The notes beneath the pieces are model-generated. The model worked only from the letters and a program-made list of their open reading frames with translations, had not been told where the DNA came from and did no database searches. The position numbers were made by a program, and so were the translations under genes. A stretch of 20,400 nucleotides of DNA from the IMG/VR virus record IMGVR_UViG_3300042868_003754, positions 1-20,400 of that record. One strand, given 5' to 3'. The DNA is from a virus. Each line of letters opens with the position of its first letter. The first letter of the stretch is position 1. Below are positions 1 through 19,268 of the stretch, piece after piece.

Positions 1-3000
1 TGCCAGCCGCGAGATCGTTGCCTTCAGCCGTGTAGACCGAGTTCATCGCAGGACGCAACGGACCTAGGCTCTCCCAGAGCTCTTGCTCTTGAGCCTGGTT
101 CAAGTCGTGCAGAGGAATGCGCTTGCCCGTGGGCACAGCAGGCAGAGCCTTGCCGTTCTTGTCTCGGCCAGGAGACTTGCGCTCTTCACGGTACGCCAGA
201 TCACCAGACTCCATCAGACGCTGGATCATCTGTTCACGAGCTGCAGCGTAGGCAGCTTCGTAGAGTCGGTAGCCAGTCTCGATCACCTTGTTCAGGGTGC
301 GCCGGCGCTCAATGAACGTGGCGAAGTGAGCTTCCATGGTCTCTTCGACCGCATAGCCCATGATCTGGTAAAAAGCCTTCTCCAGCGCTCGACGCTGCGG
401 GAACAGATTGTCTGCCAGCAACTGCTCTGCAGTGGCAGATTCGTTCAGAGGCTTGCCACCCCCCACCACGATCAGAGTGTTCAGGGCCTGGATCAGCTCC
501 GTCAGGTCAGCAACATCTTTGCGCTTACCCTGAGCTACATCTTCAATGGTCGTGTAGATCCCTTCGATGAAAGCGTTCTGCATGTTGGCCACAGACTTCG
601 ACAGCTGTGAACCAAACGCAAACGAAGTCATCGGGGTTTTCATCAGGTTGCGAGTAGCACCCGACACCCCATCAGCGCCCTCACGCAGGGGCTTGGTGAT
701 CTTCTGGAAGGCAGCCCAGATCTGCGGGTCGAAACCAGCAGACTCTTCGATCATTTTCAGCACCTGGTTGCCCAGATCCTGGTACAGGTCTTGGCCGCCC
801 TTCTCAGCGTACTGACTGAAGTGCTCTTCTTCGTTGCCCAAGGCAAACATGCCGCCTTGGTTCATGACCCGGTAAAGGCCTTCCACAGTCTCTGCAGCGC
901 CCAGAGCCAGGTGCGTCAGCACAGGGCCGTTGGTCTTGCCGTCAGCGCCTACCAGCAGGTTGACCTCAAAGTCAGCGCCAGTCTCTGCAGCTTCCAGGTA
1001 CTGAGCCAGGGCCAGCAAGCCCTGCAGCGACATCATCTTCTCAGCACCACCAGCCACCTGAGACACCAGCTTCTGGTTTTCAGGCGTCCAGACGCTCATG
1101 TCTTTGCGCAGCACACCTTGACGGATGACTTCTGCAGCACGACGCACATCCGAAGTAGGATCGTTGAAGATCTTCTGGTAGCCAGAAGTCTTCGTCGTCT
1201 GTGCGTTGGTCTGCTTGTCCGTCTTCACACCCAGCGCCTGAGCCACCGAGATCTTGAACTCAGTCAGCAGCGCTTCGTTGCTGAAAGAGATCTTCGTCTT
1301 CCAGTTCGGGCGCGTGAAGGCAAACCGGTGCAGCTTGCTCGACTGCATGTTGAGCGACTGGGTCTTGATGCCCACACGGAAGTTGCGCCAGACCTCGTAC
1401 TCGACAAACATCTGCCGATCTTTGGCCCGTTGGACGATCTGCCCAAAGACACCAGCCGGCAAATCTTCACGGAGAGTCTCAGGCAAGCCCAGCATCTCCA
1501 TCATCTGCTCGTACTGCACCGACAGGTTGTCGTTCTGAGCTTCGATGCTGCCCAGACGTTCAACGTGAATCTTGCTCCCGTCAGGCTCGACCCAACCAGC
1601 AGCTTCCAGCGTGGCTTGCTTGCCAAGGCCCAGCATCAGATCCAGCATCTCAGGGATCACCTGGTGCGGCACCTTCTGAGCACGGTTCAGAACCTTGGCC
1701 AACTTGGCAGGAATCTTCTGACGGGTGCCCTTGGCAAACTCTTGCTTGAACTTGGCTGGCTTCTCCAGAGCCGTGCGGGTCAGCGACTCCACACCAAACA
1801 TCTTGTCCACAGCCGATCCAGAGTACCGGTTGGTGTTCTTGATGTCTTCGATTTCAAGCCAGGCTGAAGCACTGCCAGCCAGGCCTTCACGAGAGAACTG
1901 GACGTACTTGAACTTGGTCTCGGCCCCGTAGCGCTCAGCTTGCTTCTCGGAGTCTTTGAAGAAATCCTGAGCTACCTGACGTGCGTTCATCTCATGCCGC
2001 ACCAGCACTCCCTTGCGCTCCAACAGCGCCAGGGCATGCACACCCAGAGCAGCCTGCAGACGAGGCAGCAAGTCTTGCGGTGCGTCTTTCATGGCACGCA
2101 AGCCCAGGGCTTCCACAGCGGCTTGGCCCAGCGTGTTGATCACGACTTCTTCAAAGCCAGCCATGTGCTTCAGAGCTTGGCGACCTTCCAGCGTCAGCAC
2201 ATCACCTTCAGCTCGCCCGTGCATCTCCAGGATCTCCAGGGGCAGCTTGGCCTTCGGAGTGTTGGCCTGATCAAGCGTCCAGCGGTAGGCCGAGTAGGCA
2301 ACAGCGGTCAGCACGTTCTCGCTGAACTTGCCAGTGCCCGGATCCACCAGGTAACGGCTCATGTCCTGATGCTGGAAGTCCTTGCTGATCTGAGCATAGG
2401 CCTCGGCATTGGGCATGTTTTCCCGCAGGTTCGAGAGCCAGCCAGAGCGAACGACCTTACCGTCACGCACTTTGTCGCTCAGCACCTGGCCAAAGTTCTT
2501 CAGTGCTGCCAGAGCTTGGATGCGCTCAACACTCTCAGCGTTGTACGAACGCAGCTTGTCCTTGAAAGCCTTCGGCAGGTACTGCCACTGAAGCAAGTTG
2601 TCTTGCCGCCATGCACTGAAGAAGTCTTGAAGCGAAGCCAGCGGCTTACCAGAGACTTCCTTGCTACGGCCAGCGACTTGGTTAAAGAACGCTGCCACCA
2701 AGTTCACACCACGGAACACAGCGCCCACTTTGCTGGACTCAAGAGCAGCACGGTCTTGCTCTGCAGCTTGGAGTGCCGGCAGCTTGCCTTCAACTGCCAG
2801 GTCAGCGCTGCCTTCTTCCAGGTCTGTGGTTTCTTCCGTCGCCGTCTCCGCCAGCACTTCGGTCTGCGCCGGCTGCGCCTGCTCGACCTCGGCTGGCTGC
2901 ACGGCTCCGAGAGTAGCTTCAGCAGGTGCAGCAGACGACGCCACCGGAGCCACAGGCGCAGCCGTAGTGGCGACGGGGGCAGAAGCCGGCACAGAAGGCG

Positions 3001-5467
3001 CAGGAGCAGGGGTAACAGCAGAAGGAGCCCCGTTGGTAGCCGGAGAAGGTGCAGAGGCTGTTGCAGGGGCTTTGGCGAGCTCCACGGCAGCACGGATGCT
3101 GTCCCGGCTTGCCTTGATAGCCTGGGCTTCGGTACGAATGTCCTGCACCACACCAATCGAACCAGGGTGGATCCGCAGGCTTCCGCTGTCACGAAGCTCT
3201 TTCTCGACTTCCTTCAAGTCCCTGGTCGGGTCGATAGGCTGCACTTCCCACCCGCCTTGCTCCAGCTTGACCAGTGCCACACCCATGGTGTTGCCTTGGG
3301 TGTTGCGAAGTTCAGTGGCTTGAGCCAGTGCTTCCCTGGCCTTGACTGCTTTGTCAGCATGGCTGGCCAAGAACTTTTGCAGACCAGCCACTTGCTTCAG
3401 TGCCATGTCGACGTTGCCGCCAGCCAGAGCCAGCCCTGCACGGCGGGTGTAGTCGGCAATGCCCAGCTGACGGGTCTTCGGATCCCCGTTCAGCACTTCG
3501 CTGCGGACCTTGCTCCCAGTCTTCAGCTTGTTCATCGCCACCTGAGCAGCAGACAACTGCCGCAGTGCCACGCGCTGTGCAGGTGCCAGACCGTTGCTCG
3601 TGTCGTCAGCCAGTTGCAGAGCAGCTTCCGGGCTCAAAGAACCAGGAGAAGACATCGACAGGTTGATGATGACCCGTGCAGCTTCCTGAGACTCTTGCAC
3701 AGCAGCCTGATCGTTCTGATCCACAGACGCAGCAGCTTTGGTGCGCAGAGCAGCAATGGCATCAGCGTCTTGAGCGATGCCTTCAGCGGCCTTGACCATG
3801 TCCAGGCTAAACGTCTGCAGAGTCTTCTGCACATCGTTGAGCTCAGTGTCCAGAGCTGCGCGCTTCTTGTTGAGCTCGACCAGCTCTTTGCCTTCAGCCA
3901 CAGGCGTAGCCAGGATCTGCTCCAGCTCAGCACGCTTGGCTTCGTTCTCAGGCGTAGCCGGCAGAGCAGCCAGCTCAGCTTGTGCTTCCTTGCGCCCGTT
4001 GGGCGTCTGGTAGTACAGGGCGTCCGACTCAGCTTCCATGGTCTGCTTTGCAGCCAGGGCCTTGACGAAGTTCTCGTTGCGCTGTTCCGGCGTTGCGTCT
4101 TCCTTGAAACTCGTGGCGTAGAGAGAAGCCACCGCCTGCTTCGGAGAGTAGAGCGGAGATTCCTTGTTCAAGAACACCGACACATCACCGGTCTGCTCAG
4201 CCATTTCAGCAGCAGCCTTGTTGATTTCCCGCTTTGCAGCGCTGTCCACGGCGTCTGCAGCTTTCGAGGCCACACCCGAGAGCGCCTCACCCACTGCCGT
4301 CACACCGCCAGTGAGAGCACCACCGGTCATGCCACCAATAGCACCGCCCACGTAGATGTCTTCAGCACTGGCCGGCTTCAGACCAGCCACGCCTTCCAAG
4401 TAGGTCTGGCCAGCTTCCGTGGGAGCTTCGGTAGCCACACCCTTGGCCGTGGCCTTGCCGGTGTTCAGGATGGCTGCCTTGAGCCCCTTGCGAGCAATCT
4501 CGTCACCAGCTTCTTTGGCTGCCTTGGCCCCAATGCCCAGAGTCTTCAGAGACAGCACGTCTCCGACTTGCTCCAGAGCCACCGTACCGGCAGCAGCCAA
4601 AGCCATCGTGGTACGGGTGTCGGCATCAGGAAAGGCACCGTTGTTTTCAGCCTGGAACTTCTCCAGGCCTTTGCGGTATGCCTCGGCACCGTAGCCCACG
4701 TTGCTGGCGGTCAAAGCACCCATGCCAACCTTGCCAGCAGCACCGACCAGGAGTTGGGGAGCGTTCTCCGCTGCGTACTCGACGACTGCCATCGGGTTGC
4801 TGCCAGCAGCGCCCACAGCGTTGTAGGCCAGCTTGCCTAGGCCAGCCAGCACATCACCAGCGCCCGAGATCGACTTCTTGTTGGTGATCTCGTCCCAGCC
4901 TTGAGTCACTTGTGCCCAAGGGCTGGCAAAGCCTTCCCGCAAGTCTTCTTGCAGGGCTTGCTTCTTCGTCTCGTCCACGATGGAGCCGATGTTGAAGAAG
5001 CTGTCCACCTTAGACGAGATGCCACGGAGTTGCTTCGACTGATCGAAGTAGCTCATGGCCGTCCGACCACGAGGGTCGTTGGGGTTGACCGGAGCGTTCA
5101 GCAGGTCGATGTCACGGGGCGTAGCTTCACCACGCACCATCCGGTTGTAGGCGTTGTAGTGGTTCTCGTCCAGAGCTGTTTCTGCCGCCGAAGCGATGGC
5201 ATCCGAAGGCAGCGAAGCCAGATCACCAATCAGCCGGGAGCCGCCAGAAACAATGTTGGCACCCAGGTTCACAGCCTGGCCAGCGATGCCGTCTCGATCC
5301 AGGCCAAGACGACCAGACCAAGAGAGGTCTTCAGGCTCGATCTGGACAGGCTGAGCCTGCACCAAAGAGCGAAGGCTTTCTACCTTTTGACGCCGTGCTT
5401 CGAGTATCTGGGCAAACTTACCCGAGCTTGCGTTTTGCACAGAGACAAAAGGATTGGAGCCGGACAT
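1..5467 (-). CDS. Virion-encapsidated RNA polymerase (N4 gp50-like vRNAP), 3' end outside window
   Basis: Seen: I translated this frame from the ATG at 5465-5467 to the window edge, 1,822 codons with no stop. Residues 204-405 are Gly/Ala-rich and end in a glycine-zipper stretch (GGAIGGMTGGALTGG). A Pro/Ala-rich linker spans about 800-885. RNA polymerase motifs follow: a candidate T/DxxGR region around W1360-R1364, motif A (ADGKTNG, D1509) and motif B (RNLMKTPMTSFAFG, R1606 and K1610). Known: N4 vRNAP is about 3,500 aa, with a polymerase domain in the middle third; it is packaged, ejected with the DNA and transcribes early genes. The spacing D1509 to K1610 (101) resembles N4 D559 to K670. Motif C (HD) should lie about 280 residues after motif B, beyond the window. 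Odd: F1618 replaces the conserved motif B Tyr. The ribosome site is weak (TGGGAA) and abuts a hairpin. Confidence 0.93.
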   Translation of the reverse strand, partial: MSGSNPFVSVQNASSGKFAQILEARRQKVESLRSLVQAQPVQIEPEDLSWSGRLGLDRDGIAGQAVNLGANIVSGGSRLIGDLASLPSDAIASAAETALDENHYNAYNRMVRGEATPRDIDLLNAPVNPNDPRGRTAMSYFDQSKQLRGISSKVDSFFNIGSIVDETKKQALQEDLREGFASPWAQVTQGWDEITNKKSISGAGDVLAGLGKLAYNAVGAAGSNPMAVVEYAAENAPQLLVGAAGKVGMGALTASNVGYGAEAYRKGLEKFQAENNGAFPDADTRTTMALAAAGTVALEQVGDVLSLKTLGIGAKAAKEAGDEIARKGLKAAILNTGKATAKGVATEAPTEAGQTYLEGVAGLKPASAEDIYVGGAIGGMTGGALTGGVTAVGEALSGVASKAADAVDSAAKREINKAAAEMAEQTGDVSVFLNKESPLYSPKQAVASLYATSFKEDATPEQRNENFVKALAAKQTMEAESDALYYQTPNGRKEAQAELAALPATPENEAKRAELEQILATPVAEGKELVELNKKRAALDTELNDVQKTLQTFSLDMVKAAEGIAQDADAIAALRTKAAASVDQNDQAAVQESQEAARVIINLSMSSPGSLSPEAALQLADDTSNGLAPAQRVALRQLSAAQVAMNKLKTGSKVRSEVLNGDPKTRQLGIADYTRRAGLALAGGNVDMALKQVAGLQKFLASHADKAVKAREALAQATELRNTQGNTMGVALVKLEQGGWEVQPIDPTRDLKEVEKELRDSGSLRIHPGSIGVVQDIRTEAQAIKASRDSIRAAVELAKAPATASAPSPATNGAPSAVTPAPAPSVPASAPVATTAAPVAPVASSAAPAEATLGAVQPAEVEQAQPAQTEVLAETATEETTDLEEGSADLAVEGKLPALQAAEQDRAALESSKVGAVFRGVNLVAAFFNQVAGRSKEVSGKPLASLQDFFSAWRQDNLLQWQYLPKAFKDKLRSYNAESVERIQALAALKNFGQVLSDKVRDGKVVRSGWLSNLRENMPNAEAYAQISKDFQHQDMSRYLVDPGTGKFSENVLTAVAYSAYRWTLDQANTPKAKLPLEILEMHGRAEGDVLTLEGRQALKHMAGFEEVVINTLGQAAVEALGLRAMKDAPQDLLPRLQAALGVHALALLERKGVLVRHEMNARQVAQDFFKDSEKQAERYGAETKFKYVQFSREGLAGSASAWLEIEDIKNTNRYSGSAVDKMFGVESLTRTALEKPAKFKQEFAKGTRQKIPAKLAKVLNRAQKVPHQVIPEMLDLMLGLGKQATLEAAGWVEPDGSKIHVERLGSIEAQNDNLSVQYEQMMEMLGLPETLREDLPAGVFGQIVQRAKDRQMFVEYEVWRNFRVGIKTQSLNMQSSKLHRFAFTRPNWKTKISFSNEALLTEFKISVAQALGVKTDKQTNAQTTKTSGYQKIFNDPTSDVRRAAEVIRQGVLRKDMSVWTPENQKLVSQVAGGAEKMMSLQGLLALAQYLEAAETGADFEVNLLVGADGKTNGPVLTHLALGAAETVEGLYRVMNQGGMFALGNEEEHFSQYAEKGGQDLYQDLGNQVLKMIEESAGFDPQIWAAFQKITKPLREGADGVSGATRNLMKTPMTSFAFGSQLSKSVANMQNAFIEGIYTTIEDVAQGKRKDVADLTELIQALNTLIVVGGGKPLNESATAEQLLADNLFPQRRALEKAFYQIMGYAVEETMEAHFATFIERRRTLNKVIETGYRLYEAAYAAAREQMIQRLMESGDLAYREERKSPGRDKNGKALPAVPTGKRIPLHDLNQAQEQELWESLGPLRPAMNSVYTAEGNDLAAG

Positions 5468-17106: not shown

Positions 17107-17538
17107 ATGCGAGTAAAAGCGCTCCATCCAAACTTCAGAATGCCGACAAAAGGTACTGATGGTGCGGGTGCCTTCGATATTTACATGCCAGTTGCTGGCA
17201 GTGTTGGCTACAACCAGCACAAAACCATCCCTCTGGGGTTTGCTGCTGAGGTTCCGCCTGGGTATGTGGCGCTTTTGCTGCCTCGTTCGGGCGCTGGTGC
17301 CAAGCACGGCCTGGAACTGAACAACACCTGCGGCGTCATCGACTCCGACTACCGGGGTGAGTGGAAAGCAGTTCTCCGCACCAAGTCGCCTACTCCGTTC
17401 CTGTGGAACGAAGACGACCGTGTTCTCCAGTTCCTTCTGGTGCCCGTCCTGGACGTGCGCCTTGAAGAAGTCTCCGAAGACGAAGAGCTCACGGCCACAG
17501 GCCGGGGGGTCGGAGGCTTCGGTTCCACGGGCGGCTAA
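17107..17538 (+). CDS. dut: dUTP diphosphatase (trimeric dUTPase)
   Basis: 143 aa from ATG 17107 (MRVKALHPN), placed 10 nt after the GGA of AAAGGAAA; an in-frame ATG at 17056 would add 17 residues without a ribosome site. All five trimeric dUTPase motifs are present: motif 1 GAGAFDIYMP, motif 2 PRSGAGAKHG, motif 3 GVIDSDYRGE (catalytic Asp), motif 4 DDRVLQ, and motif 5 GRGVGGFGSTGG, the C-terminal P-loop-like tail that closes on the nucleotide. It hydrolyses dUTP to dUMP and pyrophosphate, keeping uracil out of DNA and feeding dTMP synthesis. It is the first gene of a plus-strand cassette opposed to all surrounding structural genes, which suggests early or middle expression apart from the late operon. 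Length is normal and no defect is seen. Confidence 0.95.
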   Translation: MRVKALHPNFRMPTKGTDGAGAFDIYMPVAGSVGYNQHKTIPLGFAAEVPPGYVALLLPRSGAGAKHGLELNNTCGVIDSDYRGEWKAVLRTKSPTPFLWNEDDRVLQFLLVPVLDVRLEEVSEDEELTATGRGVGGFGSTGG

Positions 17539-18593: not shown

Positions 18594-19268
18594 TCAAGGG
18601 AAGCCTTTTGCAGCCTTTCGGTTGACCGTCGCAGCCTGGTCGATCTCGTAGTTTTCGAGCTTCAGGCGCATGCATTCCCCCTCGTATTTGGCATACCACG
18701 TGTTCCCAGCGTGAAATTCGTTGCTCATGCCCGCAGGGTTGTGGGCACGGGAAGCCACGAAGTACATCAGAGCCTGCATGTAGACCCCGGGAAGCTCGAG
18801 TTCCACGCTATTGACGCCGTTGTTGACGACTTCTTCGACTTCAAGTTGGGCGTGTGAAGCCCGGTACTCGACCGTCAGAGCAGCAGTTTTGTAGCCATCC
18901 GGCAGATCAGGCCCCTGCCCCACCACCACTGCCGGAACATCGAGCAGCTTCACCCGTGGGGTGTGCAAGCTGTAGGGGTTGCCCTTGTCGTTGATCGGGA
19001 AAGGCATGCCAGTGTCGGTCTTGACCGACTCCACCTTCAGCAGATCTTCTGCGGCCAAGGGGTACTGCAGCACGCCTTCTTCGATCGGCACAATCAGCTT
19101 GCCTTCCTTGAGCTTGAAGCGAGAGTAGATCGCCATCAGCCCCAGGTTCACGTGGCCCACCAGGATCGCCAAGTTGGCGTCGCTGATGTTCTCCGAATTG
19201 GAAGTGCCGAGAGAGATCTGTGCCAGCTCCGAAGCGGCCAGGTTGTCGATGAGAGTGGAGAGTTGCAT
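18594..19268 (-). CDS. Head-tail adaptor / head-completion protein candidate, N4 gp67 position
   Basis: 224 aa. The N-terminal part (1-60) is helical (LAILVGHVNLGLMAIYSRF). A beta-rich middle (60-150) includes EGVLQYPLAAEDLLKVESV and LTVEYRASHAQL. The C-terminus (160-215) has ELELPGVYMQALMYFVASRAHNP then AKYEGECMRLKLE. The pattern 'helical bundle, beta middle, LP-x2-Y-x2-AL-x2-Y-V-A-x-R, then YE-x-E-C' is typical of adaptor proteins bound under the portal (SU10 adaptor, T7 gp11/P22 gp4-like). It begins 10 nt after the terminase stop with a weak ribosome site and ends at the bidirectional terminator. Its place next to terminase matches N4 gp67, a roughly 30 kDa tail protein. Function is inferred. 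Confidence 0.72.
   Translation of the reverse strand: MQLSTLIDNLAASELAQISLGTSNSENISDANLAILVGHVNLGLMAIYSRFKLKEGKLIVPIEEGVLQYPLAAEDLLKVESVKTDTGMPFPINDKGNPYSLHTPRVKLLDVPAVVVGQGPDLPDGYKTAALTVEYRASHAQLEVEEVVNNGVNSVELELPGVYMQALMYFVASRAHNPAGMSNEFHAGNTWYAKYEGECMRLKLENYEIDQAATVNRKAAKGFP

Follow-up and report, generated by a model that had tools for sequence, protein, structure and literature searches.

The window analysed here is a whole IMG/VR virus record of 20,400 bases from an N4-like (Schitoviridae) phage and is predicted to encode the first half of the phage's early RNA polymerase, an enzyme that is injected and active. This virion RNA polymerase (vRNAP) has phenylalanine at the position of Tyr639 in T7 RNA polymerase (RNAP) and Tyr678 in N4 vRNAP. 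Textbooks describe the tyrosine at this position as the sugar gate of single-subunit RNA polymerases. The observation, made in a first-pass annotation of the window, is correct, ordinary within the family and partly known; the apparently new element is a pattern in which the ribose contacts are lost singly and never together. On balance, we regard the enzyme as active and as a natural equivalent of T7 Y639F that retains His784; the ribose would be read via the histidine, and the discrimination against 2′-deoxy and 2′-fluoro nucleotides is probably weaker.

The polymerase is encoded on the minus strand at the left end of the window, with the following features:

2..5467, minus strand: open reading frame of the vRNAP (N4 gp50-like; PHROG 2206), 1822 residues, left open by the contig end
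1325..1378, minus strand: T/DxxGR-type region, RVGIKTQSLNMQSSKLHR, containing Arg1364, the equivalent of N4 R424 by alignment and numbering
923..949, minus strand: motif A, G1507-A-D1509-G-K-T-N-G1514-P, with the catalytic Asp (N4 D559, T7 D537) and the Gly at the T7 G542 position
611..652, minus strand: motif B, R1606-N-L-M-K1610-TPMTSFA-F1618-G1619 (T7 R627/K631/Y639/G640), translation RNLMKTPMTSFAFG
614..616, minus strand: TTT codon of Phe1618 (T7 Tyr639 / N4 Tyr678 position)

The identification of the protein as a vRNAP was confirmed by matches to PHROG 2206 "virion RNA polymerase" (E 6e-201, residues 69-1814) and, in tblastn, to Schitoviridae vRNAPs (E about 1e-70, approximately 29% identity). 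Searches against PDB sequences and Pfam gave no match in either, and the fold was therefore compared via a predicted model. The polymerase region was modelled with AlphaFold2 (pLDDT 86.6, pTM 0.86), and Foldseek placed the model closest to N4 mini-vRNAP (TM 0.67-0.75), followed by the mitochondrial and T7 RNAPs. An overlapping contig (L003), which is 100% identical across the polymerase region, supplies the rest of the vRNAP; motif C and the His784-equivalent are located outside the window and were read on this contig. The full-length protein on L003 has 3622 residues and no cysteine, and the part within the window (1821 residues) is likewise free of cysteine. It thus resembles N4 vRNAP (gp50; mini-vRNAP), which is also giant and Cys-free, has the same catalytic set and fold, and carries an HExxH motif in the C-terminal region (HELVH at 2228; HEIIH at 2280 on L003). 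Unlike the present enzyme, N4 vRNAP has Tyr678 in place of the phenylalanine and glycine in place of the histidine (IGTGD in N4, IHSLD here). Elsewhere the window carries Schitoviridae genes for structural components (portal, major head protein, tape-measure-like protein and terminase). A scan of genome contigs for prophage-like relatives found none.

The minus-strand translation of positions 596-655 is TRNLMKTPMTSFAFGSQLSK, and R1606, K1610, F1618 and G1619 are exactly where the first-pass annotation had numbered them in the frame 5467..2. Its ungapped alignment of the phenylalanine to T7 Y639 and N4 Y678 was also borne out. R1606, K1610 and F1618 sit on N4 R666, K670 and Y678 without a gap, and a profile of the vRNAP aligned to T7 RNAP in hhalign (E 2e-4) over motifs A and B, ungapped across R627/K631/Y639. 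The annotation had suggested a model of the active site; in the model of the polymerase region, which has an N4-like fold, Phe1618 directly follows the motif-B helix. In total, R1364, D1509, R1606, K1610, F1618 and D1902 (L003) align to N4 R424, D559, R666, K670, Y678 and D951. The equivalents of N4 R424, D559, K670 and R666 and the motif-A Gly are invariant among the 172 vRNAPs of the survey described below, and D951 is nearly so; this retention of catalytic residues favours a working enzyme. Sequencing error is excluded because the overlapping contig has the same phenylalanine, as do dozens of relatives. The low overall identity to N4 and the lack of a Pfam or PDB sequence match might raise the suspicion of a misalignment, an error in sequencing or a polymerase that has degenerated and lost its activity. 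Given the agreement of two independent motif-B comparisons, the intact catalytic residues, the N4-like fold and the recurrence of the residue in other sequences, this explanation is extremely improbable and, for practical purposes, refuted.

The annotation had proposed that the Tyr/Phe position be scored across all Schitoviridae vRNAPs. Isolated phages were taken individually, IMG/VR was scanned by patterns that exclude the Tyr/Phe site, and near-duplicates were removed at 85%, yielding 172 vRNAP domains, each less than 85% identical to the others. The Tyr639-equivalent is tyrosine in 107 domains and phenylalanine in 65, with no other residue. Conservation of the tyrosine, on which the annotation had relied for single-subunit RNA polymerases in general, therefore fails in the vRNAP family, and Tyr678 is no defining trait of Schitoviridae vRNAPs. 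The idea that a natural phenylalanine is exceptional here is not supported; it is common and recurrent in Schitoviridae, and "Y678F" was already noted for LIT1/LUZ7-type phages in a supplementary figure legend of 2010 (PMC3715699). We considered whether this legend refers to RNAPII and rejected the idea; LIT1 RNAPII and N4 gp16 have tyrosine, whereas the LIT1 and LUZ7 vRNAPs have phenylalanine, and the legend therefore concerns the vRNAP. PA152 and Littlefix also have a Phe-type vRNAP, and a published account gives tyrosine for the roseophages DSS3phi2 and EE36phi1 (PMC2784036). A natural phenylalanine in a vRNAP is already documented, and its extent seemingly is not in the literature found; the pattern around the residue, namely its recurrence and its coupling to histidine, appears to be new here. 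The closest known systems are the vRNAPs of the Pseudomonas phages LIT1 and LUZ7 and of Littlefix (Migulavirinae, Littlefixvirus). They are the same protein with a Phe-type motif B (KKPLTAMMFG, KQPLTAMMFG), the same histidine (HAGD, HALD, HSTD) and the catalytic residues kept. They differ from the present vRNAP in overall sequence (approximately 29% identity) and in the residue two before the motif-A Asp, where the replacement of Glu by Gly belongs to this phage's subclade.

In the present vRNAP, the HSQD block of T7 RNAP (HSID in RNAPII) corresponds to H1878-S-L-D, within SIHSLDS at residues 1876-1882 on L003, and N4 vRNAP has GTGD. The correspondence of His1878 to T7 His784 is drawn from a weak profile alignment (E 0.007) together with the shared HSxD block, and the alignment failed for the N4-type (Gly) group. 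All 65 Phe-type vRNAPs have histidine at this position, which for one divergent row (L102) was taken from the first alignment. In the Tyr-type enzymes, the partner is Gly (62), Gln (24), His (14), Ser (5), Thr (1) or Ala (1). No vRNAP lacking both the Tyr hydroxyl and the histidine was found among the 172. All 172 have Gly at the position of T7 Gly542, a residue that leaves space for a 2′-OH. The annotation had suggested that the phenylalanine implies either tolerance of dNTPs or discrimination by another residue. This idea is supported, with His1878 as the candidate residue: it is common to all Phe enzymes and is replaced by glycine in N4.

We infer that the sugar contact has shifted and selectivity is lowered in the Phe/His vRNAPs. 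At the sugar-sensing end of the O helix, phenylalanine replaces tyrosine at a site that toggles between the two across the family, and it would be tolerated only where the neighbouring contact to the 2′-OH and minor groove, the His784-equivalent, stays. Ribose recognition, which Tyr639 and His784 share in T7, would rest on the histidine alone here and on the tyrosine alone in N4, where glycine takes the place of the histidine.

Two features were observed around the histidine. The fourth residue after it (Ser1882 on L003) is Ser in 62 of 64 Phe enzymes, and at the same position Ala occurs in 26 of 38 Tyr enzymes with His or Gln; this residue may be part of the coupled set. Several relatives of the Tyr type that nest close to the Phe enzymes (L007, L008, L009, L024 and others) have VQGTDA-like blocks, unlike the T7-like histidine. 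These blocks resemble family A DNA polymerases, which carry Gln at this place (Gln754 in Taq).

Phylogenetic trees were built without the Tyr/Phe and His columns. Most Phe rows fall in one half of the family, and Tyr rows, mostly with Gln for His, are nested among them. Our first reading, in which the phenylalanine marked one clade (Migulavirinae and Littlefixvirus), was overturned by the wider survey and by an AU test that rejected a single Phe clade (p 3e-39; 35 rows, LG+G4). Phenylalanine arose or reverted several times. A dependent-sites model of the Pagel type beats independence for the two positions (LR 32.7, p 1.4e-6), with a p value that leans on poorly supported deep branches. When independent evolution was simulated on two trees, none of 874 and none of 1195 runs was free of a Phe/non-His tip. 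An independent-pairs (sign) test had 4-5 supported contrasts, which are too few for significance.

The sisters L351 (Phe) and L388 (Tyr), which are 53% identical with 100/100 support, differ at the sugar gate and have histidine in both. Such a pair, together with the Tyr and His combination in 14 of the 172 enzymes, would be expected if the phenylalanine were near-neutral, with the histidine and the rest of the pocket providing normal rNTP selectivity and Tyr/Phe drifting as a conservative swap wherever the histidine is present. However, RNAPII in the genomes compared below also has the histidine and never drifts to phenylalanine (tyrosine in 26 of 26), and in the T7, SP6 and Syn5 enzymes the Tyr-to-Phe change brings a measurable loss of 2′ selectivity, with the histidine in place in T7 and SP6 (PMC4551944; PMC13286181; PMC4538805). 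We therefore consider near-neutrality unlikely, although it is the most serious competitor to a His-based reading of the ribose with loosened selectivity.

The comparison with RNAPII was made in 26 near-complete genomes, 25 with a Phe-type and one with a Tyr-type vRNAP. RNAPII kept its tyrosine in 26 of 26, and the HSxD block was present wherever it was recovered. The RNAPII of N4 and LIT1 (gp15/gp16 type) is thus similar to the vRNAP in having a single-subunit-type motif B and an HSxD block, but unlike the Phe-type vRNAP it has tyrosine even in the 25 genomes with a Phe-type sister enzyme. Within these genomes, the relaxation is confined to the injected early enzyme.

The RNAPII large-subunit gene is interrupted in three genomes. 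In one (G024, L442/L444), a group I intron (Rfam, 88 bits) with a GIY-YIG-like ORF follows motif A (DACCSG), and in another (G025, L437/L445), a group I intron (Rfam, 63 bits) is located near motif C. In the third (G009, L440/L446), the break falls at TVH|D and comes with an HNH-like ORF; Rfam gave no match.

Engineered enzymes indicate what a Phe/His pair might do. T7 Y639F accepts 2′-F and 2′-NH2 NTPs, His784 contacts the 2′-OH, and 2′-OMe nucleotides are admitted only by the double mutant Y639F/H784A (PMC4551944; PMC13286181). Syn5 Y564F also shows loosened discrimination against 2′-F (PMC4538805). By analogy, the Phe-type vRNAP would synthesize RNA well, reject dNTPs and 2′-F/2′-NH2 NTPs less strictly, and still keep out bulky 2′ groups by means of the histidine. 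Ribose selectivity could also be restored by other residues. T7 Y639F, SP6 Y631F and Syn5 Y564F have phenylalanine at the ribose-sensing position with the histidine kept (stated for T7 and SP6). They are engineered T7-like enzymes with double-stranded DNA promoters, whereas the present enzyme is natural and belongs to the hairpin-promoter vRNAP family. Tyr-to-Phe replacement at the sugar gate underlies commercial 2′-fluoro-RNA enzymes. The Phe-type vRNAPs are candidate natural polymerases for modified RNA that would use single-stranded hairpin promoters, and the natural toggling with the second contact always kept makes the division of labour between tyrosine and histidine testable between natural enzymes.

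More tentatively, Tyr639 and His784 may be a redundant pair for reading the 2′-OH, of which one is losable but never both. The loss of one contact but never both would give three natural selectivity types in the vRNAP family (Tyr only, Tyr and His, and His only). The His-only type would have evolved repeatedly and would tolerate dNTPs and 2′-fluoro NTPs, and a strict Tyr enzyme would be kept for middle transcription. We offer this broader scheme as a possibility to which we give somewhat less than even weight.

A further explanation is that use of both substrates was selected, in that the early enzyme would gain from dNTPs, for example in pulling in the genome or through a role in DNA replication. 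N4 vRNAP is required for DNA replication besides early transcription (PMC2784036), and the invariant motif-A Gly keeps the pocket open to both sugars. However, we found no evidence that any vRNAP synthesizes DNA, most of the Schitoviridae sampled have tyrosine, and the dUTPase gene tracks the clade rather than the residue, as described below. Selection for dual-substrate use is accordingly improbable, and relaxed selectivity with the histidine retained is the reading we prefer.

The annotation had connected the phenylalanine with a neighbouring dUTPase, which would limit dUTP for such an enzyme:

17134..17532, plus strand: dUTPase-like coding stretch (PF00692, E 5.5e-23, above the curated cut-off)

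The two genes lie on opposite strands, and approximately 11.7 kb separates this stretch from the start of the vRNAP. Of the Phe genomes, 23 of 25 have a dUTPase, as do 7 of 24 Tyr genomes, but the association appears confounded by clade. The nested Tyr phages L154, L162 and L388 have a dUTPase, and the Phe phages L113 and L118 do not. Presence follows the clade and does not single out the residue, and a specific link to the phenylalanine is not supported. The dUTPase-like frame and the structural genes are on opposite strands, and no named gene besides it was found from the portal gene to the structural gene at 18594-19268.

A further variation was observed in motif A. The Glu of the N4 E557 type, two residues before the motif-A Asp, is present in 162 of 172 vRNAPs and is replaced by Gly (G1507) in this phage's subclade; T7 RNAP has Ala where N4 vRNAP has E557. 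Gly at this position was observed at loci L027-L034 and L046, and in the first survey it was found only among Phe-type enzymes.
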